A stretch of 22,426 bases of DNA from a virus, in the IMG/VR virus record IMGVR_UViG_3300037189_018481, positions 1 through 22,426 of that record. The stretch is one strand, 5' to 3'. The notes under the pieces are model-generated. The model searched no databases, was not told where the DNA came from, and saw nothing but the letters and a program-made list of their open reading frames with translations. Shown piece after piece: positions 1,833-17,559 of the stretch. Position 1 is the first letter of the stretch. Each line of letters begins with the position of its first letter. A program made the position numbers and the translations under genes.

Positions 1833-2732
1833 ATGTCCTTTTCAAATCTTAAAAAGCAATCTCAACTTGGTTCTCTTACGTCTAAACTCGTAAAAGAAGT
1901 TGAGAAGATGAGTAATTCTGGTGGATCTACTGATGATCGCATCTGGAAACCAGAAGTAGATAAAGCAGGTAATGGATTCGCAATTATCCGTTTCTTGCCT
2001 GCTCCAGAGGGAGAAGATCTTCCTTGGGCAAAGGTTTATAATCATGCATTTCAAGGCACTGGTGGTTGGTTAATTGACAATTGCCTAACCACAATTAGTC
2101 AAAACTGTCCTGTATGTGAAGCAAATCGAGAATTGTGGAATACAGGTAGTAAGGCAAATCAAGATATTGTGCGTGATCGCAAACGTAAGTTATCTTACTA
2201 CAGCAACATCTATGTTGTGAGTGATAAGGCACATCCTGAAAACGAAGGTAAGGTATTTCTATTCAAGTATGGTAAAAAAATCTTTGATAAGATTACTGCT
2301 GCCATGCAACCAGAGTTTGAAGATGAAAAACCCATTGATCCATTTGACTTTTGGAATGGTGCAAACTTCAAGGTAAAAATTACCAAGAAGGATGGTTATT
2401 GGAATTATGATAAGTCGGAATTTGAAAAATCTTCACAACTATCTGATGATGATGATGAAATGGAATCAATTTGGAAGAAGTCTCATTCTCTTTCAGAGTT
2501 TGTAAATCCAGAAACCTTCAAGTCTTATGAGCAACTAGATGCTCGTTTGAAAGCAGTTCTTGGTAAAACAAAAACTCAACCAAAGGTAGATGAATCTTTT
2601 GAAGATGAGGATAGTAATTCTGCTCCTCCTCTTCCTGAGAATCTTCGTAAGGAACTCAACAATCTTTCATCCTCAAATGCAGATGAAGATGATGATGCCC
2701 TCAGTTACTTTGCTCGTTTAGCAGAAGATTGA
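1833..2732 (+). CDS. 32: Single-stranded DNA binding protein gp32
   Basis: 299 residues, same size as T4 gp32 (301). ATG at 1833 is chosen because MSFSNLKKQSQLGSL gives the expected N-terminus with a basic LAST-like patch (KKQS); an in-frame TTG at 1770 would add an unusual Asn/Pro stretch and overlap the previous gene. The zinc ligands are visible as His71-X12-Cys84-X7-Cys92-X2-Cys95, matching the T4 zinc subdomain. The core contains the aromatic/basic DNA-binding region (VRDRKRKLSYYSNIYVV). The C-terminus is very acidic (NADEDDDALSYFARLAED), as expected for the domain that contacts gp59, polymerase and recombination proteins. It binds ssDNA cooperatively at forks. It is the last gene of its transcript, with a terminator immediately downstream. 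Confidence 0.96.
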   Translation: MSFSNLKKQSQLGSLTSKLVKEVEKMSNSGGSTDDRIWKPEVDKAGNGFAIIRFLPAPEGEDLPWAKVYNHAFQGTGGWLIDNCLTTISQNCPVCEANRELWNTGSKANQDIVRDRKRKLSYYSNIYVVSDKAHPENEGKVFLFKYGKKIFDKITAAMQPEFEDEKPIDPFDFWNGANFKVKITKKDGYWNYDKSEFEKSSQLSDDDDEMESIWKKSHSLSEFVNPETFKSYEQLDARLKAVLGKTKTQPKVDESFEDEDSNSAPPLPENLRKELNNLSSSNADEDDDALSYFARLAED

Positions 2733-3395
2733 TTATCTTGGGGAGAGGATTCTTAAATTCTCTCCCTTTTTTGTATTATCATCTACATATTGAGAAGAAA
2801 ATCCATAAGACATTACTTCTCGCATATCATCAATTGCAGTTTGAAGATAATTATTTCTCAGTACATAGATATTTCTTTTTGCATCATTTTTTTGAATTTC
2901 ATATTCATAATTAGTCACAGATTTAATTGGAGTAATTGTTTGAGTTTGATTTAAAACTTCATCAAAATAAGTCATTGAGAAATTTGAATCAACTTGTCTT
3001 CCACTTGGTAGAATTAATTTTCCTCTTGAATCATAATAGGTTAAAGTTTCCCAATGATGTACTTCGTATAATTGCTCTGAAGTATATTTTCTAAATATAA
3101 AGTTCTCAAATTCATAATCATTTAACGGCCATTCAGTTCTAATGTTGAGAATATTATTTGCAATTAGAACTACCCAATCATAAGCAGAACTTCTATGAAC
3201 TTTTTCTGCTACTTGTTCTGGACGTTCATTTCCAATAATTTTATATTTTGTAAATACCACAACATTTTGAAAAAAGTCATCACGAATCTTTGCTCTACGA
3301 AATAGATTCTTGACTCTTACATAATCATAAGAAGAGTTTCTGTTTGGTTGCTGGGACTGATAAAGTAAGTCCGATACTTCTCTAAAATAAGTCAT
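2733..3395 (-). CDS. 53: Baseplate wedge protein gp53
   Basis: 220 residues, near T4 gp53 (196). The N-terminal half has the family pattern: YVRVKNLFRRAKIRDDFFQN, then GNERPEQVAEKVHRSSAYDWVVLIANNI and RTEWPL (about residues 25-105), which includes the LysM-like motif seen in gp53 of T4-like phages. gp53 joins wedge arms to the central hub late in baseplate assembly. Its ATG is one base away from the stop of the gp48-like gene, so the two are co-transcribed. The stop codon directly abuts the gene 32 stop on the other strand, and the last 11 or so codons encode the gene 32 terminator hairpin. Downstream of about residue 110 the sequence is less familiar to me. Confidence 0.85.
   Translation of the reverse strand: MTYFREVSDLLYQSQQPNRNSSYDYVRVKNLFRRAKIRDDFFQNVVVFTKYKIIGNERPEQVAEKVHRSSAYDWVVLIANNILNIRTEWPLNDYEFENFIFRKYTSEQLYEVHHWETLTYYDSRGKLILPSGRQVDSNFSMTYFDEVLNQTQTITPIKSVTNYEYEIQKNDAKRNIYVLRNNYLQTAIDDMREVMSYGFSSQYVDDNTKKGENLRILSPR
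2741..2772 (+). terminator. Rho-independent terminator after gene 32
   Basis: Stem of 11 base pairs (2741-2751 with 2756-2766, one G-T wobble), core GGGAGAG/CTCTCCC, loop CTTA, followed by six T (2767-2772). It starts nine bases after the gene 32 stop. On the minus strand the hairpin has no T run, so it should stop plus-strand transcription only. It lies wholly inside the last codons of gene 53 on the other strand. Confidence 0.88.
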
Positions 3396-3396
3396 T

Positions 3397-4968
3397 TTAG
3401 TTTGCTGGAGGTAATCCTAATGATGGTTGATTGGGTCCAGTTCCTTGCGATTGTGTTCTTGTTGGGGATGTTGCTTGTCCTGCAGGTCCTGGTGCTGCTG
3501 CTGGTGGTGCTGCTGCTGCTGGTTTTCCTGTGGGACCATCTTCCAATTTATCCCACCCAACAGTATCAGAGTCTTCATAGTTATCATTATACAATGGAGT
3601 TAATTCAGTAAATGCTAATGTCATTGTTACAGCAATTGGTTGACTTCCTCCAGCATTTTTTTGAGTATCTTCATATGCTGCATAAAATCCATCGGGGGTG
3701 TAGTTAACTACACATTGTTGAAGAGCACAGGTTTTAATTTTTCCAATACTTCCTAATTCGGTATCCCCAGATTTGAAATTAATATCAAATACATTAGGAG
3801 TTCCTAAGAAATATGCTGCTTTACTATCGGTAAAATTTCTTTTTGCTGCCATTCCTTTTTTGAAGAACTTAATAATATATCTTATGTTTTTTGCTTCATC
3901 CTGATTTCTTGGAGACATTTTAAATTGAAATGCAAAACTTCTTAGTTTTGGTCCTTGGAATAATAATTCTAAATTAGGATTGATTGCAGTTCCAGTAATA
4001 CGACTTCTAAATGCTTCTGGATTAATATTAATTCCAAACTTTTTAGTGACTTCTGCAGCAGCATTTAATGTTAATAATTGTTTAATTGTTTCATTTGCTC
4101 CACTTTCTTTATTTAAAGTCGTTTTTATTGCTTCATTGGCAGCCTTACCAATCTTATCAAAGTTCCCGGCACCTAATCCCCCAACAACACCTAAAGCAGC
4201 ACCACCAACTAATGCTGCCAATGAAGAAAGACTATCTTCTCCCCATGCAGTCACATTAGTTTCTGATATATCATTCGGCATTGGTAAAATTACTGTGCCT
4301 AAAAGTTGTTCTTTGGTTGGTGGTTCTTTAAATCTTTCTTGAGAAATTGCATTTTCACTTATCTTTCCCTCCGAAAATGCATTAGTTGCAATATATCTTC
4401 TTTGAGTTATGACAATTCTATCTTGAGAAGGATTCATATCTTTTGGATATTTCAACCAATCCTTATTGCTAAACTCTTCATCATTTTGAAAATTATTAGA
4501 TGATATATCAAATACTGCAGGAGACGATGCGGGATCAGCATTATCTGGATTTTGATTATTTGTATTATCTGGTGAGGTTCCTATTCCCAATCTTCCTGGT
4601 GGTGGTGGTTGTTGAACTTGTGCTAGATGTTTATAAACTTTACTATTATTTAATGCTTCTATGTTATCTTTTATTCCTGTATTCTGGACTAGTTTATAAA
4701 CATCTTTTTCGATTTTTTTATCAACAATTGTTATATCTTCAAATCTTTTCTTATCTAAGTTTTTATTAGAATTTTTATCTATTTGATATAATAGTTTGTT
4801 TCCAAAAGTTGTTTTTTCATATACCATATAGCTTCCATTAATATCATTTGCAACAACTGATATTGGGCGTAAAAATTTATCTTTATCTATCAGTCGTAGT
4901 GAATTGTTTGTATAAATGCCTGGTGAATTTGGATCCGATTGTTTCCATCCTGCTGGTGGTGTTGCCAT
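3397..4968 (-). CDS. 48: Baseplate tail-tube cap protein, gp48-like
   Basis: 523 residues from the ATG at 4968 (MATPPAGWKQSD). That start leaves one base after the upstream stop; an in-frame alternative at 5016 would overlap the upstream gene by 47 bases. Parts in order: a variable N-terminal region to about 115; a Pro/Asn/Asp linker (about 118-155) with PPPPGRLGIG; a Gly/Ala hydrophobic stretch LAALVGGAALGVVGGLGAG (about 250-268); then a conserved core from about 325 (GTAINPNLELLFQGPKLRSF, MSPRNQDEAKNIRYIIKFFKKGMAAKR, VVNYTPDGFYAAYED, MTLAFTELTPLYNDNY). The core resembles cyanophage gp48, which has the tail-tube fold and caps the baseplate so that the tube can start. The last 40 or so residues are Ala/Pro/Gly-rich and probably disordered. 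gp54 is the alternative name for this fold, but another candidate for gp54 is encoded at 6024. Confidence 0.72.
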   Translation of the reverse strand: MATPPAGWKQSDPNSPGIYTNNSLRLIDKDKFLRPISVVANDINGSYMVYEKTTFGNKLLYQIDKNSNKNLDKKRFEDITIVDKKIEKDVYKLVQNTGIKDNIEALNNSKVYKHLAQVQQPPPPGRLGIGTSPDNTNNQNPDNADPASSPAVFDISSNNFQNDEEFSNKDWLKYPKDMNPSQDRIVITQRRYIATNAFSEGKISENAISQERFKEPPTKEQLLGTVILPMPNDISETNVTAWGEDSLSSLAALVGGAALGVVGGLGAGNFDKIGKAANEAIKTTLNKESGANETIKQLLTLNAAAEVTKKFGININPEAFRSRITGTAINPNLELLFQGPKLRSFAFQFKMSPRNQDEAKNIRYIIKFFKKGMAAKRNFTDSKAAYFLGTPNVFDINFKSGDTELGSIGKIKTCALQQCVVNYTPDGFYAAYEDTQKNAGGSQPIAVTMTLAFTELTPLYNDNYEDSDTVGWDKLEDGPTGKPAAAAPPAAAPGPAGQATSPTRTQSQGTGPNQPSLGLPPAN

Positions 4969-6721: not shown

Positions 6722-7453
6722 ATGCCTTTACCAAAAATTGTAACTCCGACTTATGAGTTGACTTTGCCATCGAATAAGAAGCAGATTAAATATCGTCCCT
6801 TTCTTGTGAAGGAAGAAAAGGTATTAATTCTTGCAATGGAAAGTGGTGATTCTGAACAAATCACTAATGCAGTTAAAAATGTTTTAAGAGATTGTATTCT
6901 TACTAGAGGAATTAAGATTGACACTCTTCCAAGTTTTGATATTGAATATCTATTCTTAAACATTAGAGCAAAATCTGTTGGAGAATCCGTTGAACTTTCA
7001 ATTACTTGTCCAGATGATGGTGAAACTCAAGTAGATGTTGTAGTTAATATTGATGAAATTAAAGTAGAAATTCCAGAAGGGCATGAAACTGAAATTAAAG
7101 TAGATGATTCTATTACTGTAAAGATGAAGTATCCTTCACTTCAAGAATTTATTGATAATAATTTTGATTTTTCTAAACCGAATAGTAGTGAAGAAACAAT
7201 TAATAAATCTTTTGAGGTTATTGCATCTTGCATTGATATTGTTTATACCAAAGATGATTCTTGGTCTTCTAGTGATGTGACCAAAAAAGAAATTGTAGAA
7301 TGGTTACAGACAATGGATTCAAATCAATTCAAAGGAATTGAAAATTTCTTTGAAACTATTCCTAAATTATCTCACACTTTGATTGTCAAGAATCCAAAAA
7401 CCGAAGTAGAAAGTGAAGTTATTCTTGAAGGGTTATCAAGTTTTTTCGGATAA
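6722..7453 (+). CDS. 26: Baseplate hub subunit gp26
   Basis: 243 residues. The N-terminus MPLPKIVTPTYELTLPSNKK followed by IKYRPFLVKEEKVLILAMES is the hallmark of the T4 gp26 family (PF12322-type baseplate protein); T4 gp26 is 208 residues and has the same RPF...REEKVLL core. The middle holds SITCPDDGETQVDVVVNIDE and the C-terminal part is acidic and helical. gp26 takes part in hub assembly in T4. The ATG at 6722 has AGGAA about eight bases upstream. The stop overlaps the gene 51 start by one base (TAATG), as expected for coupled translation of two proteins acting in the same assembly step. Confidence 0.9.
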   Translation: MPLPKIVTPTYELTLPSNKKQIKYRPFLVKEEKVLILAMESGDSEQITNAVKNVLRDCILTRGIKIDTLPSFDIEYLFLNIRAKSVGESVELSITCPDDGETQVDVVVNIDEIKVEIPEGHETEIKVDDSITVKMKYPSLQEFIDNNFDFSKPNSSEETINKSFEVIASCIDIVYTKDDSWSSSDVTKKEIVEWLQTMDSNQFKGIENFFETIPKLSHTLIVKNPKTEVESEVILEGLSSFFG

Positions 7454-7635
7454 TGCTAAGTCATGAGGACTTAGAGGGATTTTATAGAATTAACTTTGCA
7501 TTGATGCAGTATCATAAATATTCATTAACTGAAATTGAAAATATGATACCCTGGGAAAGAGAAATTTATTTGACTCTTTTGGAAAATCATATTCAAGAGG
7601 AAGAAGAGAAGGCATCAAAAAAACAAAGTCTTTAA
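7453..7635 (+). CDS. 51: Baseplate hub assembly protein gp51
   Basis: 60 residues. DLEGFYRINFALMQYHKYSL (residues 6-25) followed by EIENMIPWEREIYLTLLENH and IQEEEEKA is the family signature; T4-type gp51 has a similar FYRLNFALMxxHxYSLxEIExMxPxERxI pattern. The protein is small, helical and acidic at its end. In T4, gp51 is required to assemble the hub but is catalytic or chaperone-like rather than a major virion part. It begins at the TAATG junction with gene 26. A CATAAATA string occurs inside the gene at 7513-7520 but is probably fortuitous. Confidence 0.9.
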   Translation: MLSHEDLEGFYRINFALMQYHKYSLTEIENMIPWEREIYLTLLENHIQEEEEKASKKQSL

Positions 7636-7638
7636 TCC

Positions 7639-9762
7639 ATGAATACTAAAGATCTTATTGAATTAAAAAAACAAAGAATCCAGGAGGAACTTCGAAAATT
7701 AGTTCCTCCTGGATTCCATTTGTTTCCACCTCCAAAAATGAGAGGTGATTCTTATGATAAGTTAGATAAGTTTCTAGGAAGAGATGCTGAGTTTTTGATG
7801 CAGGTTGGATATTTAAATCCAACAAATAAAGGATATGATATTGCATTACAACATTTAAGATTCTTCGGTGGAAAACTTAAGGACTATAAAGAATTTGAAA
7901 ATACTGGATCATTTTATAATGATCCAGAATTAAATAAAAATCTTCGAGAGTGTTGTGATTATATCCTTCGATTCTATGAACTTGCAGAGATTACGATTAA
8001 AAGAATCAATGACGAAGAAGATGTAAGGTTAAAATTAATTCAGAAAGAAAGAGATAAACAGCAAAAAGACCTAGAACAATCTCAAGAAAAGAAAAAGAAA
8101 GCATCTGGGTTTGTTGCTGGTGCTACTAAGTTTCGTCCAGGAGAAACTGCATCAATTAAATCTGCAAAAGTTTCTGGTATTATTCCAAAAACAAAGGCAA
8201 TACCACAGGAACTTGCAGAAAAAATTTCAAAACCAGTAGATGCAACTATTGAAGAAACGGTTGCAGCACCAAAAAAGGTTGTATCTACTCTTGGAAGATT
8301 AACTCTTGATCTGGTTCAGATTAATGATAATTTGGATAGTGTCCGAAAAGTCATTGTAGAAGATTATAAAAATACTAAAGAATTTAATAAAAAAGAAGTA
8401 GATGAATATAGAAAGAGAGTTGCAAATCGTGGTAGAAGAATTGGTAGAAAAGAACTTGGTAGTGATAAAACAAGTCTTAAAGACTTAGTTAAAAAGTATG
8501 TTGGTGGATTTTTCACTGGAACTGGTGGTGCTATTCGTGCATTAGCACTTTTTAATATGCTTGAAGCATTTGCCAATGGCAATCCTATGAAAGCAATTGG
8601 ACCACTTCTTGGGATTGGTGCAACCTATTTGCCTGCAATTGGACAAGCAGTTGGTGGAATAATTGCTGCTAAAGTTCTTGGTGGAATATTTAAAGGTGGT
8701 AGAGGTGCTACTCAAGGTGTAAGAGCAGGAGCAGAAGTTGCTGGGAAGGGTGCTAAATTTCTTCCAGCACTTGGTAGAAGAGGTTTAGCAGGACTTGGTA
8801 TAGGGGCAGGAATTTTTGCTGCAAGTAAATTTTTAGGGTCTGGAAATGAACCTGATGCTCAACAACAAAGATTAGAAGATCTTACTCAAGAACAAAAAGG
8901 ATTGGTCAATCCTCAAAATCTTGTACCAATTCCTGAAGATGATTTGCAAAGATTTGAAAATTTAAATAAAAAATTTGAAAAAGCACTTGACCTTTTGATG
9001 GGAAAACAAAAGGACCAGGACAAAGGAACACCTACTGGTGCAGGAAATGCTCCACCAGCACCAATTTTGCCCCCACAAGATAACCCAACTCAACTAAATT
9101 CAGGTCAATATAAAGATATAATTAATCAAGCATCTCAAATTAGTGGAATTCCTGCTTCTCAAATAGCAGCAATGGGTAAAATTGAATCTACATTTGATCC
9201 AAATGCAAAATCAGAATCTGGTGCTCTTGGAATAATGCAAATGATGCCAGATACTTTTGCCGAACAATATAAAAAATATGGAAAACAATATAATTTAAAA
9301 AATGATATTAAAGACCCACAAACAAATATAATTTTAGGTTCTTTGTATATGAAGGATCTCTTAAATGGACCAGCAAAAGGTAATGTGGAACAGATGGTTA
9401 AAATGTATAATGCTGGACCCGCAGGGAATCTATCTGCATCACAACCAATGGAACATTGGAAAAAATTTAAAAGTGCCTTGAAAGATTTTAAAAATTTGGA
9501 ATCTGGATTGAGTGGAATGAACTTAGTTCCATCGGCACCAGTTTTACCACCACCAACACAAACACCAAGACAATATCAAAATGTAACTCTTGCTCCATCA
9601 TCACCTTCACCAGTGATAGTTCCATTTGCAACACCACAAAAACAAGAATCATCTCCAATGTCAATGAGTGACCAAGGTAATGTTATAATTGATCCAGTAT
9701 CTACATCTTATTCTGATAATTTTTTAACATTATATTCAAGATTAATTTATCAAATTGTATAA
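7639..9762 (+). CDS. Tape-measure-like tail protein with lytic transglycosylase domain
   Basis: 707 residues. Residues 1-125 contain MRGDSYDKLDKFLGRDAEF and other motifs I do not know from T4. A long charged helical region follows (about 115-285, KERDKQQKDLEQSQEKKKK). At 287-400 comes a Gly/Ala hydrophobic part (YVGGFFTGTGGAIRALALFN, AIGPLLGIGATYLPAIGQAVG). A soluble lysozyme-like SLT domain spans about 490-615: catalytic Glu516 in KIESTFDPNA, then SGALGIMQMMPDTF (527-540) and YNAGP (590-594), the three motifs of Slt-type transglycosylases. The tail is Pro-rich. The enzyme would cut glycan strands with formation of 1,6-anhydro-muramic acid at DNA injection. Location between genes 51 and 27 and the coiled-coil/hydrophobic layout suggest a tape measure or hub-lumen protein; no gp29 similarity was recognised. 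The gene starts three bases after gene 51. Confidence 0.75.
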   Translation: MNTKDLIELKKQRIQEELRKLVPPGFHLFPPPKMRGDSYDKLDKFLGRDAEFLMQVGYLNPTNKGYDIALQHLRFFGGKLKDYKEFENTGSFYNDPELNKNLRECCDYILRFYELAEITIKRINDEEDVRLKLIQKERDKQQKDLEQSQEKKKKASGFVAGATKFRPGETASIKSAKVSGIIPKTKAIPQELAEKISKPVDATIEETVAAPKKVVSTLGRLTLDLVQINDNLDSVRKVIVEDYKNTKEFNKKEVDEYRKRVANRGRRIGRKELGSDKTSLKDLVKKYVGGFFTGTGGAIRALALFNMLEAFANGNPMKAIGPLLGIGATYLPAIGQAVGGIIAAKVLGGIFKGGRGATQGVRAGAEVAGKGAKFLPALGRRGLAGLGIGAGIFAASKFLGSGNEPDAQQQRLEDLTQEQKGLVNPQNLVPIPEDDLQRFENLNKKFEKALDLLMGKQKDQDKGTPTGAGNAPPAPILPPQDNPTQLNSGQYKDIINQASQISGIPASQIAAMGKIESTFDPNAKSESGALGIMQMMPDTFAEQYKKYGKQYNLKNDIKDPQTNIILGSLYMKDLLNGPAKGNVEQMVKMYNAGPAGNLSASQPMEHWKKFKSALKDFKNLESGLSGMNLVPSAPVLPPPTQTPRQYQNVTLAPSSPSPVIVPFATPQKQESSPMSMSDQGNVIIDPVSTSYSDNFLTLYSRLIYQIV
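7676..7716. repeat. Perfect 16-bp inverted repeat (hairpin) in the 5' coding region
   Basis: GAATCCAGGAGGAACT (7676-7691) pairs without mismatch with AGTTCCTCCTGGATTC (7701-7716) around a nine-base loop. It begins 37 bases after the ATG at 7639 and encodes part of RIQEELRKLVPPGF. No T run follows, so it is not a typical terminator. The left arm contains AGGAGG, a full Shine-Dalgarno match that would be hidden in the stem. Presence is certain; function is unknown. Confidence 0.9.
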
Positions 9763-9765
9763 GAT

Positions 9766-12069
9766 ATGCAAGACATTAATATAAAACCAGTAGAAAAAAA
9801 GAAACCTCAAGTTGTTGCAAAAGTTTCCAAAATTAGTGCAATTTTAGAAGTTTCAGATAAAGCAAAAAAAAGTTCTCTAAAATTAAGAAGAACTTTTGAA
9901 AAAGGAATTTATCAAAAAAGAACACAATTATCAGTTTTAAAACGATATAAAAGAAGACTTGATCTTATTGAATTGGAAGATGATAGAAGAACAAGGTTAA
10001 AATCAAGAAAAAAGATCCAACTACCAAATATAAAAAAGTTTGCAGGAAACTTCTTTTCTCCTGGTGCTGCTGATGATCCGTTTAAAGCAATTGGAGCATT
10101 AGCAGCATTTAATGCTGCAACTAAGGCATCAAGTGGTGATTGGTTGGGAGCATTTGGTCCAGCATTAGTTGCCGGTGGAGCATTACTTGGTCCTGGATTA
10201 TTAGGTGCAGGTGCAAATAGATTATTCAATAAGGGAGGAAAAGTTCCTAAAGGATTTGATAAATTTGGAAGAAGAGTTTCTAAACCTGTTCAACAAAGAT
10301 ATGCTCAAAGATATGGTGATAAAGCATTTAAAAATAGATTTGGTGCAAGAAATTTAAAAAATATTTCACCTTCAAATGGAGCATCAAAATTAGCAGGAAA
10401 GGGAATTCAAAAAGCATTAGGCAAATTTGGTAGAGCAATAATTCCAGGTGCTGGTGCATATTTTAGTGCTCAAGATGCAAAAGAAAGAGAAAAGGAAGGA
10501 GATATATTTGGATCTAGAGTTTCTGGATTATCTGCTACATTAGCAGGAACTGCTGCAGGACTTCAATTGGCTGCTGGTGGTGCTGCTGCTACTGGAATTG
10601 GATTGCCAGCAGCAGGAGTTATTGAATTAATTGCTGGTTCTGCTGAAGTATTGTCATTTGGATTAGATGCATTTAATTTACTTAGAGATGTAACAGGACA
10701 AAGTGATCCAAAAAATCAATTAAAAAAACAAACAGAAAAGCAAAAAGAATTAGTATTAAAAAAGAAAGATGATAAAAATAAATTAACATTCAAAAAAACT
10801 TTGAATAGTTATGAACGTGTTATTGATAAGTTTGATAAGTTTTCAAAATCTTTTTCTGGATCCTTTAATTCATATACAAAGGATGAATCAACTACAATGG
10901 CACGAAGAGTTGAAGATCAACTTGGGAATCAACCCACAGGGGGTGGAATTCCTGGGGAAGGATTTAGAGGACAGGTTGCACAATATCTTACTGGAGATAC
11001 AAGTGATTCAGGGTATGATAAATTTCACGATAGCACATATATTAATGGTAGATTTAATGACAACTATCATGATCATTTTGCATTTAAGGATAGAGCAACT
11101 GCAGTAAGAGCATATAAATTTTTAAAAGGAAAGAATATACAAGTTACTGAGTTGAAAGGTTATGATGTTGTGGGTGGGCACGGAGATGGATCTGCTCACT
11201 ATTCTGGTTTAGCATTTGATGTTCCTGGGGCACAATGGGGAGGAACTCCAGGAACTCCTTCTGGTCCAAAAGAACGTGCTGGATCTGCAAGAGTTAGAGC
11301 ATTAATGAATGAATTTTTTGGAGCATCAAATTCTAGTGGTGCAAGAAATATGTTTAATATGGAAATACATGCTACTGCAGCAAATGAAAAACAAAAATCT
11401 GGATTGATGCCAAGTTATCTAGATCCTTCTTCTAAAGTATCTAAAGAATTTGCATCTGTGTTTGGACAATATCCAAGAAGTTGGAGAGTTGATTCTAAAA
11501 CTGGAAAGGGACTGGGAATGTTGGAAAGAGGTGGAAACATTTTAGAAACTGATATGAAAAAGGGAGTAGATAAAAATGCTCAAGATATATTTAATGTCAT
11601 AAAAAATAATCCAAACACAACCTTTAATATTTTTGCAGGACATAATGATGTAACAAAAGGAGAACTTGGTGCTCCTGGAGAACAAAATTATAATAGATTA
11701 GTTGCAGAAAAATTAGAGGAAATGTCAAGAAGTTCAAAATTGAAAAATTTTACTTATCATAGATCTATAATTGCCAATAATGATAATGACCCAAATGCAA
11801 ATTGGAATCGAGTAAAGGCATTACGAGAACGTAATACTCAAATTATACAACCTCAACCTCAACAAAGAAATATAGCATCATATACACAATATGCACCAAG
11901 CACAAGACAGCAGCAAGTTATACCATTACCAATGCCATTATTACAACAACCAAATCAACCAATAATGATGCAGCAAAGTTCTTCTGCTCCATCTTTAATG
12001 CAAGGACCATCAGAAGAACAGGTGTTAAATAGTTTTTATAAGAGAGTCCTTCTTAATACATTACAGTAA
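9766..12069 (+). CDS. Tape-measure-like tail protein with M15 zinc peptidase domain
   Basis: 767 residues. A basic helical N-terminus is followed by a Gly/Ala hydrophobic part (about 90-150 and 235-310); FAGNFFSP, IGALAAFNAATKA and FGPALVAGGALLG match the corresponding part of the preceding protein. From about 400 to 545 lies an M15-like peptidase: SAHYSGLAFD (476-485) fits SxHxxGxAxD with zinc ligands His478 and Asp485, and MEIH supplies Glu533 and zinc ligand His535. M15 enzymes cleave D-amino-acid peptide bonds in peptidoglycan. A further segment (about 612-690) has AGH (His626) and GEQNYNRLVAEKL (Glu639), which may be an amidase-like fold; this is weak. The C-terminus is Gln/Pro-rich. The gene begins three bases after the previous stop and ends in a TAATG overlap with gene 27. 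It would open the cell-wall peptide cross-links during infection. Confidence 0.72.
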   Translation: MQDINIKPVEKKKPQVVAKVSKISAILEVSDKAKKSSLKLRRTFEKGIYQKRTQLSVLKRYKRRLDLIELEDDRRTRLKSRKKIQLPNIKKFAGNFFSPGAADDPFKAIGALAAFNAATKASSGDWLGAFGPALVAGGALLGPGLLGAGANRLFNKGGKVPKGFDKFGRRVSKPVQQRYAQRYGDKAFKNRFGARNLKNISPSNGASKLAGKGIQKALGKFGRAIIPGAGAYFSAQDAKEREKEGDIFGSRVSGLSATLAGTAAGLQLAAGGAAATGIGLPAAGVIELIAGSAEVLSFGLDAFNLLRDVTGQSDPKNQLKKQTEKQKELVLKKKDDKNKLTFKKTLNSYERVIDKFDKFSKSFSGSFNSYTKDESTTMARRVEDQLGNQPTGGGIPGEGFRGQVAQYLTGDTSDSGYDKFHDSTYINGRFNDNYHDHFAFKDRATAVRAYKFLKGKNIQVTELKGYDVVGGHGDGSAHYSGLAFDVPGAQWGGTPGTPSGPKERAGSARVRALMNEFFGASNSSGARNMFNMEIHATAANEKQKSGLMPSYLDPSSKVSKEFASVFGQYPRSWRVDSKTGKGLGMLERGGNILETDMKKGVDKNAQDIFNVIKNNPNTTFNIFAGHNDVTKGELGAPGEQNYNRLVAEKLEEMSRSSKLKNFTYHRSIIANNDNDPNANWNRVKALRERNTQIIQPQPQQRNIASYTQYAPSTRQQQVIPLPMPLLQQPNQPIMMQQSSSAPSLMQGPSEEQVLNSFYKRVLLNTLQ

Positions 12070-13373
12070 TGTCATCATATTTAAATTACAAAATACAAGA
12101 ATTCGTTATTGAATCATTAGATGGAACAAAATCCATCAATGCAGTTGGATGCATTGCTTCGGCAAAATATTATGAAGATTTATTTTCTCCATCTATTTTT
12201 ATCTCAATGGTTCTTGTGAACACTGATGGATTATTATCTGCACTTCCAATTCGAGGAGGAGAAAGAGTTAGATTAAAGATTGACCAAGAAGCAACTGGAA
12301 AATCAATTTCTATTAATGAAACCAAAAATCCATATTATATCTACAAAGTTTATGGAACAACAACTGAATCTACAAGAGAAACAATATTAGTTGAACTTGC
12401 TCCATCTGAACTTTTTACAAATGAAACTACAAGGGTTTTTAGAAGGTATCCAGATAAAGAAGGGTCTGTAGAAAAAATTAGTGATTCTGTAAGAAAAATT
12501 CTTAAAGATGTTTTGAAAACTACAAAAAATATAGATGTTGAACCATCAATGAATAGTTATTCTTTCTTTGGAAATTCAAAAAAACCTTTTGGAGTTTTGA
12601 CTTGGTTATGTCCAAAAGCAATTCCACAAGCAGGAAGTTCTTCTGGAGAATCTGGAACTGCTGGATTTTTATTTTATGAAAATAATAAAGGATATAATTT
12701 CAAAAGTGTAGATTCATTAATGAATGGATTGCAAATTAATTCTGGCAATGTAAAATCTTACGAAAAATATTTTTATACTGCAAACGCACCAGATCCAGCA
12801 TCAACTGAGGAAAATTATAGAGTAGTTGTGACTCCAACTTTTGAAAAGAACGTAAATATTTTTGAAAATCTAAGAATTGGTATGTATTCAAGTGTTAATT
12901 ATTTTTATGATATTAATACTCGTATTCCAACTGTTTATAAGTATAAACTTACTGAAAGTTATGATATTATGAAACATACTTCAAAAAGTACTGAACGACC
13001 AAAGATTTTAAATGGATTAGAAAATTCTCCATCTAGATTGATGGTAAAGATGATTGATAACTATACAATGGATACTTTATCCCCATCTGGAACATCAAAA
13101 GATTTGAAAGAAAAATATCAGTCACAATCTGTGGCAAGATATAACCTAGCATTTAGTCAAACTTTAAGTATTACTGTTCCATTAAATCTAAATCTTACAG
13201 TTGGTGATGTAATTGAGTTAAATATAGGTGAGGTTACAAAACAAGAAAAACAAAAGGATGCTAAGAAGTCAGGTCTTTATTTAATTAAAGAACTTGCACA
13301 TTCTTTTGAAACTAATCAAGGTTACACTGGTCTCAAACTTATTCGAGATTCTTACGGAACACAACAGAAATGA
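12069..13373 (+). CDS. 27: Baseplate hub protein gp27
   Basis: 434 residues (T4 gp27 has 391). Features: YKIQEFVIESLDGT at the start, LFSPSIFISMVLVNTDGLLSALPIRGGERV (about 33-63) and PYYIYKV, typical of the gp27/VgrG-type hub barrel; later SNSKKPFGVLTWL-like core, and at the end LNLNLTVGDVIELNIGE, GLYLIKELAHSFE and GYTGLKLIRDSYG (about 375-430), which I recall in cyanophage hub proteins. gp27 trimers form the ring that links the tail tube to the gp5 spike. The gene overlaps the hydrolase gene before it by one base and gene 5 after it by four (ATGA at 13370-13373), in the gene order expected for hub proteins that form one complex. Confidence 0.82.
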   Translation: MSSYLNYKIQEFVIESLDGTKSINAVGCIASAKYYEDLFSPSIFISMVLVNTDGLLSALPIRGGERVRLKIDQEATGKSISINETKNPYYIYKVYGTTTESTRETILVELAPSELFTNETTRVFRRYPDKEGSVEKISDSVRKILKDVLKTTKNIDVEPSMNSYSFFGNSKKPFGVLTWLCPKAIPQAGSSSGESGTAGFLFYENNKGYNFKSVDSLMNGLQINSGNVKSYEKYFYTANAPDPASTEENYRVVVTPTFEKNVNIFENLRIGMYSSVNYFYDINTRIPTVYKYKLTESYDIMKHTSKSTERPKILNGLENSPSRLMVKMIDNYTMDTLSPSGTSKDLKEKYQSQSVARYNLAFSQTLSITVPLNLNLTVGDVIELNIGEVTKQEKQKDAKKSGLYLIKELAHSFETNQGYTGLKLIRDSYGTQQK

Positions 13374-15409
13374 TACTAGAACATACTTTAGTTAATCCTA
13401 ATTTTGCTGGTAGAGATGGGTTCAAGTGGTTTATTGGACAAATTGCACCTTCAATCTCAAATGTAAATGAGAATGTAGAAGCAAAGGGTGGTCTTCGTTG
13501 TAAAGTAAGAATTCTTGGACATCATCCAGCAGATTCTACAATTAGTAATGAAAATCTTCCATGGGCACATGTATTGGTTCCTCCAAGTTTAGGTGCTGGG
13601 GAAGGAAACTATTCTGCTATGGGATCTGTTCAACCAGGAACAATTGTATTTGGATTCTTTTTGGATGGTGATGATGGTCAACAACCTGTAATTGTTGGAG
13701 CATTTTATTCTGGTTCTGATATTGAATCCATTAAATCTTGGAATAATATTTTATCTAAAGGAACATCAGAATTTAAACCATTTAGTCCACCTCCAACAAA
13801 AATTCCACCTCCATCAACAACTCCAATAGGAGTTGGAAGTACTAATACAAGTGCGGATAGAGGTGCTCCAAAAACTTCTGGAAAAGTTGTTAGTGCTGGT
13901 ACAACTAGAAAAGAACAACAAACAATTTTAGCAAATCAGACAGAAGCAAAAGGAATTATAATTGAACCTATTTTAAAATGTGAAACATCTTCAGGACCTT
14001 TATCAGGTATTACAAATCTTTTAAGAAAGTTTATTCGTATTGCAAATACACTTAAAGATGCAATTAATTTATATGTTAATCCAATTTTAAATAAAATTTC
14101 TGATATTGCAAATGAAGTTAAACAAATTGCAAACGCAATTGCAGATTTAATTATTGGACTTCTTAAGAAAATAAGAGATAAAATTATTGGAGAAATTTAT
14201 AAACTTTTAAAGGGACTTATAGATCAATTACTTCCCGCAAACTTAAAGGCATTAAAAGAGGCAGCAGCAGATAAAGCAACAAAACAAATTTGGTGTGTTT
14301 TTGAAAAAATTGCACAAAAAGTTTCTAAATTTATTTTAGATTTCTTAATGAATTTAATTGGAAAAGTTGTAAGTTTTCCTCTTTGTGCAGCAGAAGCATT
14401 TTTGGGTAGCATTCTTGGTTCAATTGTAAATGAACTTACAGATTCAATTCAAAATATTTTGGGAGAAATTACATCTAGTTTGGGAGGGGCAATCTCATCA
14501 GTGCTCTCAATTTTAGAAAATATTATTAATGCAGCTTCAAGTGCAATTACATTTTTATCATGTGAAGATAATAAGTGTACTCAACAATATGCATATGAGT
14601 TGAATAAAGGATATATTCCTAACCCAGGAATTGGATTTGATAATATAATGAAATATTCTGCATCTCAAGGAGCAAGAAATCTATCCAAAGATGTTAATTC
14701 TGCTGTGGATAAATTCTTAGGAAATACTTCAGGAACAACTGAAGGAAGTGAGTTTTCAACCTGCAATGCAACATCTATAAATTGTATTATTCCAACTGTT
14801 GCAATTTTTGGTGGTGGTGGTTCTGGAGCAATTGGAGAATCAGTTGTTAATTCATTAGGGCAAATTATTGGAGTCAATTTATTAAATGGTGGTTCTGGAT
14901 ATAACACTGCTCCATTTGTCTCATTCAATGATCCTTGCGAAAATGGATCTGGAGTTCAGGCATATACTAGGATTAATGAGAACGGACAAGTTACTAATGT
15001 CGTTATGATAGATCCTGGTTCTGGTTATCTTGGTCCTGCCGTAGTAACAACTCCTTGCGAAACAACTCCAGTAACTGAAAATGGATCAGAAATCTTTGGA
15101 ACAATTGCAGATGTAATTGTAGTAGAACCTGGATTTGGTTATACTAATTCGGATATAATTGTAGATTCTTCTTGTCCAAATGATGTGTCATTATCACCAG
15201 TAGTGGATGAAGATGGTAGAGTTGTTGGAATTAATATTATTAATCCCGGATCTTCTATTAATGTATTCCCAGAATTGCAAATAAATAGTGAGAATGGACA
15301 AGGTGCTGTTTTATTACCAGTCCTCAATTTCAAAAATGACATTTCATATGTTGAAACTGACCCTCAAAAAGTTCAAAAAGTAGTATATTGTGCAGAAGAT
15401 CATGAGTAA
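13370..15409 (+). CDS. 5: gp5-type spike base with OB domain, no lysozyme
   Basis: 679 residues. Residues 17-118 form the gp5/VgrG OB domain: FKWFIGQIAP, GLRCKVRILGHHP, LPWAHVLVPPS, PGTIVFGFFLDGDDGQQPVIVGAF. A Pro/Thr linker (136-175) follows. Where T4 gp5 has its lysozyme, I see no lysozyme motifs but a long helical, partly hydrophobic region (about 207-395, with LLRKFIRIANTLKDAINLY and LADLIIGLLKKIRDKIIGEI). Residues 478-655 hold four copies of a beta unit around GGSGY: IIGVNLLNGGSGYNTAPFV, VTNVVMIDPGSGY, ADVIVVEPGFGY and GINIINPGSSI. Such a protein would form the spike base bound to gp27. The muralytic role may have passed to the two proteins upstream of gene 27. It overlaps gene 27 by four bases and the next gene by eight. 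Confidence 0.8.
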   Translation: MILEHTLVNPNFAGRDGFKWFIGQIAPSISNVNENVEAKGGLRCKVRILGHHPADSTISNENLPWAHVLVPPSLGAGEGNYSAMGSVQPGTIVFGFFLDGDDGQQPVIVGAFYSGSDIESIKSWNNILSKGTSEFKPFSPPPTKIPPPSTTPIGVGSTNTSADRGAPKTSGKVVSAGTTRKEQQTILANQTEAKGIIIEPILKCETSSGPLSGITNLLRKFIRIANTLKDAINLYVNPILNKISDIANEVKQIANAIADLIIGLLKKIRDKIIGEIYKLLKGLIDQLLPANLKALKEAAADKATKQIWCVFEKIAQKVSKFILDFLMNLIGKVVSFPLCAAEAFLGSILGSIVNELTDSIQNILGEITSSLGGAISSVLSILENIINAASSAITFLSCEDNKCTQQYAYELNKGYIPNPGIGFDNIMKYSASQGARNLSKDVNSAVDKFLGNTSGTTEGSEFSTCNATSINCIIPTVAIFGGGGSGAIGESVVNSLGQIIGVNLLNGGSGYNTAPFVSFNDPCENGSGVQAYTRINENGQVTNVVMIDPGSGYLGPAVVTTPCETTPVTENGSEIFGTIADVIVVEPGFGYTNSDIIVDSSCPNDVSLSPVVDEDGRVVGINIINPGSSINVFPELQINSENGQGAVLLPVLNFKNDISYVETDPQKVQKVVYCAEDHE

Positions 15410-15951: not shown

Positions 15952-16653
15952 ATGTCATACATAGATCACTTACAATCTGGAAGCATTCAAGTTGGAGATG
16001 CTTTAACTCCTCCTTTAGCATCTTTGGAAGTTTGGCAAAGTTTAGATGCAACTAAACCATTTGCATTTCAATCTCTTGGAATCAATAACCTTGTGGGATT
16101 AACAAATCAACTTGGACTATATTATAGAGAAGGATTGGAACTTGGAATAGGAGCAGATGTTCAATTTGGAGTTGATACAACTATTGGGTTTATAACTGAT
16201 ATTGGATATACTTGTGAAGTAGGAGGTCACATTGAAGCAATTCCTTCTGCTTTTATGGCAGTTCCATTTAATCCAAATGCAGCAATTCTTCATGATTTTT
16301 ATGGAGCATTTAGAGTAAATGGAGCACCAGTTCTTACATCTGATGTGAGATTGAAGAAAAATATTATACCTTTAACAAATTGTTTAGATAAGGTTCTTCA
16401 ACTTCAAGGAGTTGAATATGATAGAATTGATTATGAGGGACACGAGTTAGGATTGATTGCTCAAGAAGTAGAAAAAGTTATACCTCAAGTTATTCATGAC
16501 AGTGAGTATAAATCTATAGCATATACCAGTTTAATTCCAGTATTGATTGAGGCAATTAAGGAACAGCAGCATCAAATAGAGGATCTGAAAGAGACAGTCG
16601 AAAAACTGTCCACTCCTTGCCCCAAATGCTCTGGTCTGTGCTATGATGTATAG
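15952..16653 (+). CDS. Spike or fibre protein with S74 self-cleaving chaperone domain
   Basis: 233 residues. Residues 1-128 are beta-rich, Gly-rich and not recognised. From 130 the intramolecular chaperone of endosialidases (peptidase S74) is clear: SDVRLKKNIIPL with Ser130 and Lys135 at the spacing of the catalytic dyad, then LDKVLQLQGVEYDRIDYEGHELGLIAQEVEKVIPQV (145-180) and IAYTSLIPVLIEAIKEQQHQIEDL (189-212), a terminal coiled coil. In this family the domain trimerises the upstream fold and then cuts itself off just before the serine, so the mature part would be about 129 residues. The last residues contain CPKCSGLC (223-230), a possible metal or disulfide knuckle that is not part of the usual domain. 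The gene begins one base after the spike gene stop. Confidence 0.82.
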   Translation: MSYIDHLQSGSIQVGDALTPPLASLEVWQSLDATKPFAFQSLGINNLVGLTNQLGLYYREGLELGIGADVQFGVDTTIGFITDIGYTCEVGGHIEAIPSAFMAVPFNPNAAILHDFYGAFRVNGAPVLTSDVRLKKNIIPLTNCLDKVLQLQGVEYDRIDYEGHELGLIAQEVEKVIPQVIHDSEYKSIAYTSLIPVLIEAIKEQQHQIEDLKETVEKLSTPCPKCSGLCYDV

Positions 16654-16854: not shown

Positions 16855-17559
16855 TTAGAAAAATTGCTGCAATGAGGTATTTTTTAGAATATTTAAGATA
16901 GCAGTACTATCTGCAATTTGAGAATTTATTTGTACTATTGATTGATTATATCCAAGTTGTTCTAATTGATATTTTACTCTTGCTGCTTTTAATGAATTTA
17001 CACTTGAAATATAAGAATCTCTTTGAATTGCTAATGTATTAATTTGTGATAATTTAGCATTAATTGCAGCAGAAGCAATTCCACAAACTCCTATATTACT
17101 ATCAAATTCAAAGTATGTTCCAATTGCAACTTGTGAAATAAAGTTTTGAGTTCCAATTCCAAGATTTCCTGTTGTAATTGTTCCGGTAGAAGTTCCAAAA
17201 ACATTTGGGAATGTGAAGTTATAAGTTCTGTAACTTACTACATCAGCATATACAGTTGTAATTCCTGCTGGAGATGCAGGACAACCATTAAAATTTGCTT
17301 GAGTAGCAATTCCTACAATATCTTGATATAAAAAATATATACTTGAATTGATACCTACAATCTGATTGTCTAGTCCACTTATAGGAACATTGAAATTTGC
17401 AAGATTTTCTGTTACACCATAAATTTTAACAATTTGTGTTCCAGTATTAATTTCATATCCTGCTATTGTATTATTAATTTGAACTAATTGTGTTTGATCT
17501 TGTATTATTTTCTTTTCATATAAATCAATAAGTGCTTCTGTTTGAGTGCTGATTGCCAT
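16855..17559 (-). CDS. Coiled-coil and beta-rich protein of unknown function
   Basis: 234 residues, starting MAISTQTEALIDLYEKKIIQ. Both ends are predicted coiled coils (about 5-35 and 170-230: LSQINTLAIQRDSYISSVNSL, YQLEQLGYNQSIVQINSQIAD). The middle (about 75-165) is rich in Thr, Gly, Ile and Phe and likely beta (YNFTFPNVFGTSTGTITTGN). There is no signal peptide or enzyme motif. Coiled coils around a beta core fit a trimeric virion fibre or neck part, but this is inference. It is the only minus-strand gene between two plus-strand structural genes and converges on the small ORF before it. Its likely promoter is the bidirectional late box at 17582-17597, with 22 bases from box to ATG. Confidence 0.65.
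   Translation of the reverse strand: MAISTQTEALIDLYEKKIIQDQTQLVQINNTIAGYEINTGTQIVKIYGVTENLANFNVPISGLDNQIVGINSSIYFLYQDIVGIATQANFNGCPASPAGITTVYADVVSYRTYNFTFPNVFGTSTGTITTGNLGIGTQNFISQVAIGTYFEFDSNIGVCGIASAAINAKLSQINTLAIQRDSYISSVNSLKAARVKYQLEQLGYNQSIVQINSQIADSTAILNILKNTSLQQFF

Follow-up and report, generated by a model that had tools for sequence, protein, structure and literature searches.

We analysed a virus record of 22,426 bp (IMGVR_UViG_3300037189_018481, referred to as the window) that contains two adjacent long genes within the tail hub cluster of a T4-like phage. Their products, A and B, occupy two neighboring gene positions that we call slot 1 and slot 2. We consider it fairly probable that A and B are paralogous tail-interior proteins of the tape-measure or tube-lumen type that carry interchangeable cell-wall enzymes. 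A first-pass annotation of this DNA had pointed to two long open reading frames (ORFs) side by side, and these are indeed present with the following parts.

7639..9762, plus strand: protein A, slot 1, 707 amino acids, consisting of scaffold, SLT lytic transglycosylase, Pro-rich linker and C-terminal tail.
8398..8982, plus strand: scaffold region of A, residues 254-448, homologous to B residues 58-358 by hhalign with shuffled controls.
9118..9429, plus strand: SLT domain of A (PF01464, residues 494-597) with predicted catalytic Glu516, GALGIMQ and YNAGP.
9766..12069, plus strand: protein B, slot 2, 767 amino acids, consisting of scaffold, hedgehog (Hh)/M15-like peptidase, Amidase_3-like module and C-terminal tail.
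9937..10839, plus strand: scaffold region of B, residues 58-358, homologous to A residues 254-448 by the same comparison.
10978..11316, plus strand: hedgehog/M15-like metallopeptidase domain, B residues ~405-517, with conserved H435, H437, H478, D485 and E462.
11344..11832, plus strand: mobile Amidase_3-like module, B residues 527-689, an apparent circular permutation with invariant H535, E594, H626 and E639.
12028..12066, plus strand: C-terminal tail of B, LNSFYKRVLLNTL, kept across slot-2 proteins with different enzymes.

The two slots are a constant feature of related phages. Pfam, PHROG and ORF searches identified the window as part of a T4-like phage genome whose gene order is of the cyanophage type, and the nearest syntenic records among annotated phages are mostly Kyanoviridae. 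All 128 loci that include both anchors, the hub gene upstream and the gp27-position gene downstream, have a pair of long ORFs in between, and a short ORF nearly always precedes the pair. In the window these flanking genes are:

6722..7453, plus strand: gp26/gp51-type baseplate hub protein, the upstream anchor (PF12322 T4_baseplate, E=2.3e-73; phrog_150, E=5.5e-80).
7453..7635, plus strand: 60-residue ORF located where cyanophages encode the short gp51 (hub assembly catalyst), named by synteny alone with annotated cyanophages.
12069..13373, plus strand: gp27-position tail protein, the downstream anchor (phrog_350, T4-GC15, E=2.7e-99; synteny).

Annotated cyanophages have the pair at the same position under a variety of labels: hypothetical; lysozyme C and D-Ala-D-Ala carboxypeptidase; GH104 and endolysin; SleB hydrolase and endolysin; M23 peptidase. 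This variety recurs among the loci. Pfam matches in slot 1 (n=76) comprise SLT (15), SLT_3 (8), Phage_lysozyme2 (4), Hydrolase_2 (3), glucosaminidase (2), DPBB (1) and Phage_lysozyme (1). Those in slot 2 (n=70) comprise M23 (40), VanY (1) and Phage_lysozyme2 (1), and the M15-like domain of B, for which there is no Pfam model, occurs in at least a dozen further slot-2 proteins. These assignments predict a strong bias toward glycan cutters in slot 1 and peptidases in slot 2. A strict rule of this kind is ruled out by S-CREM1, which has VanY in slot 1, and by S-CREM2, where slot 1 carries GH19 and slot 2 a lysozyme. The earlier proposal that one tail combines glycan and peptide cutting fits the window and most relatives, as a bias with these two phages as exceptions.

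Within the slot-1 proteins of the window's clade, the scaffold can be aligned up to about residue 460, as can the C-terminal tail, and the middle varies. The middle segments of 26 sequences fall into 11 enzyme clusters without mutual BLAST similarity, a count that applies to slot 1 only since the slot-2 segments are all linked through residual scaffold. Together with one module transfer that is visible in the DNA of slot 2 (see below), these clusters bear out the domain swap envisaged in the first-pass annotation, and the exchange of enzymes on conserved scaffolds is well supported at the level of sequence comparison. Among the slot-1 relatives, one shows similarity to ADP-ribosyltransferase models (PF01129, 1.3e-5; PF03496, 1.6e-4).

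The lengths of the slot proteins follow the length of the tail. Tail lengths are published for eight isolates with the following slot 1/slot 2 proteins: S-SRM01 (~100 nm; 536/636 residues), S-SZBM1 (113.6 nm; 893/780), MS29 (124 nm; 932/990), S-H34 (129 nm; 943/735), S-N03 (138 nm; 933/722), S-CREM1 (165 nm; 1016/991), S-SCSM1 (173 nm; 950/1131) and S-CREM2 (418 nm; 1565/1456). Tail length correlates with the length of slot 1 (Spearman rho 0.95, permutation p 3.5e-4, n=8) and of slot 2 (rho 0.79, p 0.014, n=8). Without S-CREM2 and S-H34 the coefficients are 0.94 and 0.83, respectively. The length of the gp27-position protein served as a control and gave a rho of -0.44 (n=8). In T4 the tail ruler is gp29. 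The gp29 family (phrog_1283) was found in T4 and not in six Kyanoviridae-type genomes searched. A match of Syn9 slot 2 to phrog_196 ("baseplate hub") was considered as a possible gp29 and rejected, as T4 gp29 is phrog_1283. The scaffolds of several slot-1 relatives give matches to tail tape-measure PHROGs (L175, 4.9e-7; L156, 3.5e-5), an effect that helical composition could cause. Based on the length correlation, the gene position and the missing gp29 family, a tape-measure role of the slot proteins is likely. These lines of evidence are all indirect, and they favor the tape-measure or hub-lumen placement that had been suggested from the window alone.

Several observations weigh against this assignment. 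The tail lengths were determined by transmission electron microscopy by different groups, and two of the eight isolates are close relatives. S-CREM2 has 0.27-0.29 nm of tail per residue of slot protein. An α-helix rises by 0.15 nm per residue, and therefore neither protein alone could be a helical ruler for a 418 nm tail. Comparison of T4 gp29 with all slot profiles by hhalign detected no similarity. The deviating enzymes in S-CREM1 and S-CREM2 blur the division of labor between the slots. AlphaFold models of A (28 alignment rows) and of B residues 319-767 (25 rows) are of low confidence (pLDDT 59 and 61) and silent on assembly. Finally, the virion data discussed below come from relatives only, and the window phage is known from a 22-kb fragment.

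A special form of the tape-measure explanation, which we consider possible if somewhat doubtful, is that A- and B-type proteins co-assemble as a mixed bundle with co-selected lengths. The lengths of slot 1 and slot 2 correlate over 89 loci (rho 0.69, not corrected for kinship), both correlate with tail length, and the virion peptide counts of the two S-CREM2 proteins are nearly equal (73 and 71), although peptide counts are not stoichiometry. A broader version would hold that two ancient paralogous rulers with exchangeable wall enzymes lie together in the tube and have replaced both gp29 and the gp5 lysozyme, with a circularly permuted amidase in slot 2 of the window phage. We put this version forward only tentatively.

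We judge it rather unlikely that A and B are tail-tip lysins only, that is, scaffold-anchored hub or lumen proteins for wall penetration in a tail whose length is set by another protein. Their position beside hub genes, their enzyme content and the virion presence of relatives would be consistent with this function; so would the lack of gp29 homology and the observation that the ratio of tail length to residue number varies across isolates. The length correlation would then have to reflect shared ancestry or coincidence. This explanation is at odds with the finding that both slots lengthen with the tail while the gp27-position protein does not, and with the failure to find the gp29 family in the six Kyanoviridae-type genomes. 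The tape-measure PHROG matches of L175 and L156 also speak against it, with the caveat about helical composition noted above.

Published virion proteomes contain relatives of both proteins. In S-CREM2, ORF208 and ORF209 were detected with 73 and 71 unique peptides and listed as lysis proteins (PMC10665884). The coordinates of these ORFs are those of the two slots. The virion proteome of S-SCSM1 includes ORF213, a glucosaminidase, and ORF214, a D-Ala-D-Ala carboxypeptidase (PMC9602691). These two fit the domains in the S-SCSM1 slots, a match made by domain content and adjacency and not by protein accession. Neither paper treated the pair as structural (PMC10665884, PMC9602691). The presence of A and B in the tail, as anticipated by the first-pass annotation, is supported solely by these data on relatives. 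It is very unlikely that A and B are instead endolysins for progeny release that were carried over into virion preparations. This idea can draw on the label "Lysis protein" in PMC10665884, on the endolysin annotation in several records and on the authors of PMC9602691, who leave the choice between entry and release open. It is difficult to reconcile with the tight spacing in the hub cluster (a gap of 3 bp between A and B, followed by an overlap of 1 bp with the next gene), the large conserved scaffolds without enzyme, the many peptides in CsCl-purified virions and the scaling of protein length with the tail.

The scaffolds of A and B are related to each other. Alignment of two profiles of 28 sequences each by hhalign matched A residues 254-448 to B residues 58-358 with a probability of 97.9 and E=6.4e-13. 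A reversed profile gave E=0.15, and 19 of 20 local block shuffles gave E values of at least 0.02, the remaining one reaching 1.3e-4. The alignment is colinear across 191 columns and includes a conserved LxxxTxxQK...KFE segment. The profile comparison of the N-terminal halves that the first-pass annotation had suggested is therefore significant, and the shared basic, helical and Gly/Ala-rich region goes beyond chance. Single-sequence BLASTP between A and B is weak (7e-5 without and 2.9 with composition correction). Direct matches between the two slots of one genome were obtained for Syn9 (5.8e-19), S-PM2 (7.8e-16), S-CREM1 (1.6e-10), S-CREM2 (3.2e-9), S-SCSM1 (3.4e-9), S-SZBM1 (5.1e-9) and MS29 (3.4e-6), with E values scaled to a nominal database size of 1 million residues. 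The same comparison gave no signal in other isolates such as P-SSM2, and the cross-slot profile signal is weaker or absent in other clades. The slot proteins of Syn9 share PHROG families across the first ~230 residues. Within one slot, profiles of distant clades match across most of the protein, and the duplication therefore predates those clades. Hence, the proposed duplication withstands both profile and direct comparison, and it is well supported that A and B are real paralogues from an old, family-wide event that is not peculiar to the window phage. Convergence of unrelated low-complexity sequences (basic helices and Gly/Ala) is extremely improbable: the weak single-pair similarity, the clades without cross-slot signal and the one shuffle at 1.3e-4 would be compatible with it, but the observed signal lies about eight orders of magnitude past this best control, is colinear over the full alignment and is accompanied by separate BLASTP matches in isolates from other clades.

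The enzyme of A is readily classified. Its SLT domain scores 75.3 bits against PF01464 (curated cut-off 21.3) and contains all three expected motifs (E516, GALGIMQ at 528 and YNAGP at 590), as noted in the first-pass annotation. By profile and motifs this is a canonical SLT domain, and cleavage of glycan strands is predicted. Foldseek searches with the low-confidence model of full-length A returned MltE, MltC and Slt as top matches (E ~1.5e-3, prob 1.00), consistent with a lysozyme-like fold. Confidence in the two AlphaFold models is low except for the N-terminal domain of A, the SLT domain and parts of both B domains. Structure prediction agrees with the SLT fold of A and is neutral on the folds of the B domains.

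The first enzyme of B is less conventional. The first-pass annotation had described an M15 peptidase with SxHxxGxAxD and ExH motifs. The first motif, at residue 476, is part of a well-conserved site: H435, H437, H478 and D485 are present in 55 of 55 non-redundant relatives, and E462 is nearly invariant. A PDB profile search found Desert hedgehog (E=9e-6 over ~45 residues), with the match to the hedgehog N-domain confined to the VTE...GH...SxHYxGxAxD stretch. This zinc-site motif is common to B and the hedgehog N-domain/D-Ala-D-Ala peptidase (M15) superfamily (PMC6027127). B differs from that superfamily in three respects: none of the Pfam M15, VanY and hedgehog models matched its peptidase in native or rotated order, an invariant HxH precedes the SxHxxGxAxD motif, and a third zinc ligand C-terminal of this motif (ExH or ExxH) is not conserved among the relatives. 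The ExH of the window (E533-H535) occurs among peptidase relatives only in the window phage and its 97% identical neighbor L002, and it forms part of another module, shared with M23-bearing proteins, whose start is near residue 527. Thus, the SxHxxGxAxD part of the earlier assignment holds and the ExH part does not. Because this ExH is missing from the other relatives, the third zinc ligand is probably H435 or H437 on the N-terminal side of the motif. A circular permutation would account for such an upstream ligand. We do not claim it, because moving the segment to the C-terminus brought no better match (29.2 vs 29.1 bits). Foldseek and VIA searches with the model of B 319-767 produced neither hedgehog nor amidase chains among the matches listed. 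The best VIA match listed was a resolvase (Z 7.3), which is not interpretable given the low confidence of the model, and a sequential structure aligner can miss permuted domains. Hh/M15-like domains also occur in very long proteins (~1400-1850 residues) of other viral contigs (L238-L255), most of them open at the 5' end, and a stretch similar to the B peptidase is found in Synechococcus phage S-CBP3.

The second enzyme of B is probably a circularly permuted Amidase_3-like domain (residues 527-689). Like Amidase_3 (PF01520), it has a GH...GxxGE...N motif, ExHA and a conserved Glu; unlike Amidase_3, it shows these segments in apparently rotated order and scores below the curated cut-off of 27. 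In native order, two relatives of the module matched only the first 48-50 positions of the Amidase_3 model (17.4 and 16.2 bits). Placing the N-terminal part behind the C-terminal part extended the match to position 86-87 (25.6 and 26.8 bits, still below the cut-off). Controls in which the moved part was shuffled or reversed scored 16.4-17.2 bits, and the C-terminal part alone scored 18.6. The module of locus L259 gave 18.0 bits in rotated order vs no match in native order. The window's own rotated sequence did not match Amidase_3. PDB profile searches found an amidase (8c0j) with the rotated module at E=1.0 only and none with the native-order module, and the low-confidence structure prediction neither supports nor excludes the permutation. 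Judged by motif, zinc would be bound by H626, E639 and H535, and E594 would be catalytic; all four are invariant in a small alignment. The DNA of the module is 87.6% identical to part of L259 over 468 nucleotides. L259 carries an M23 enzyme upstream, and the rest of this gene cannot be aligned as DNA with the window gene. High identity of the module next to unalignable sequence points to recent exchange of this single module between different slot-2 proteins. The slot-2 protein of locus L281 is split inside the module (2570-4129 and 4098-4661), by frameshift or assembly error.

The neighboring genes complete the description of the hub cluster. Gene order in the window is gp59, gp32, gp53, gp48, gp2, gp4, tail tube, gp26/gp51-type hub protein, the 60-residue ORF (7453-7635, overlooked in the first-pass annotation), A, B, gp27-position tail protein, gp5-like spike and tail-fibre genes. 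T4 gp51 itself also matches phrog_150 (2.6e-84), and no similarity was detected between the gp27-position protein and T4 gp27. Further features lie downstream or in relatives:

13370..15409, plus strand: gp5-like spike/hub protein (phrog_1922); a weakly matching OB domain lies at the N-terminus, and a lysozyme domain is absent.
15952-16653: gene for a short protein with a C-terminal Peptidase_S74 intramolecular chaperone (5.5e-16), flanked by the spike region and the large tail-fibre gene.
16855-17559, minus strand: ORF of 234 residues in the tail-fibre region, without match in PHROG and Pfam searches.
L013 10251-10463, L017 10295-10516 and L019 10262-10489: CP12-type insert inside the hub gene cluster.

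The CP12-type gene encodes a carbon-metabolism regulator, is located between the gp27-position and gp5-like genes of three cyanophages and is missing from the window. A search for PF00959 (Phage_lysozyme) across the window gave zero matches, the gp5-like protein included, and this confirms the earlier description of a lysozyme-less gp5. Residues ~215-450 of this protein form a long helical-looking middle with weak matches to several tape-measure PHROGs and an exocyst Sec5 model; this segment follows the OB domain, at the place of the lysozyme in T4 gp5. The claim that wall enzymes had moved from the spike to A and B was not sustained: no such event is reconstructed, and a gp5-like protein without lysozyme is no evidence of transfer.

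Mycobacteriophage TM4 has a tape-measure protein with a built-in wall hydrolase (PMC1796659), and enterococcal phages have tape-measure proteins with lytic transglycosylases (PMC10194240). Such proteins resemble A and B in that they are long, belong to the tail and the virion, and contain a wall hydrolase. They are single proteins, whereas A and B are tandem paralogues with different enzymes in a T4-like myophage, for which a ruler role is proposed. T4 resembles the window in having gp28 and gp29 in the same part of the hub cluster. In contrast to T4, which divides ruler and wall enzyme between gp29 and the gp5 lysozyme, the window phage has wall enzymes on both slot proteins, no detectable gp29 homology in the slots and no lysozyme in its gp5-like protein. 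The T4-GC13/GC14 and related clusters of P-SSM2, S-PM2 and Syn9 (PHROGs 12696, 13530, 35029 and 35997) occupy the same slots as A and B and have so far been listed as hypothetical proteins or endolysins; the Syn9 proteins belong to PHROGs of unknown function that share N-termini.

How may this pair of proteins work? A and B would replace T4 gp28/gp29 in the hub gene cluster of a Kyanoviridae-type phage. Each would combine a largely helical scaffold, which includes hydrophobic Gly/Ala stretches, with a C-terminal tail, and an exchangeable peptidoglycan-cutting cassette would sit in between: the SLT lytic transglycosylase in A, the hedgehog/M15-like metallopeptidase and the Amidase_3-like module in B. 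Above the hub, the scaffolds may occupy the lumen of the tail tube and determine tail length or contribute to it. Upon sheath contraction they would be expelled through the tube, and the enzymes would act in the periplasm. Because the gp5-like protein has no lysozyme, opening of the wall would fall to these enzymes, and combined cutting of glycan strands and peptide stems could produce a local hole for the passage of DNA.

In the literature we searched, mostly non-subscription, tandem paralogues with exchangeable enzymes that scale with tail length are undescribed in T4-like phages, and the papers found assign neither a tape measure nor wall-entry enzymes to the abundant T4-like cyanophages. 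The locus described here is a single, family-wide conserved candidate for both functions and would explain why neighboring genes labeled "hypothetical" and "endolysin" vary so strongly. It also provides a natural catalogue of wall enzymes, including unusual domain layouts, that are swapped on fixed scaffolds among related phages. Under the tentative version with two joint rulers, tail length control and cell-wall entry in these phages would be combined in a two-slot plug-in system.

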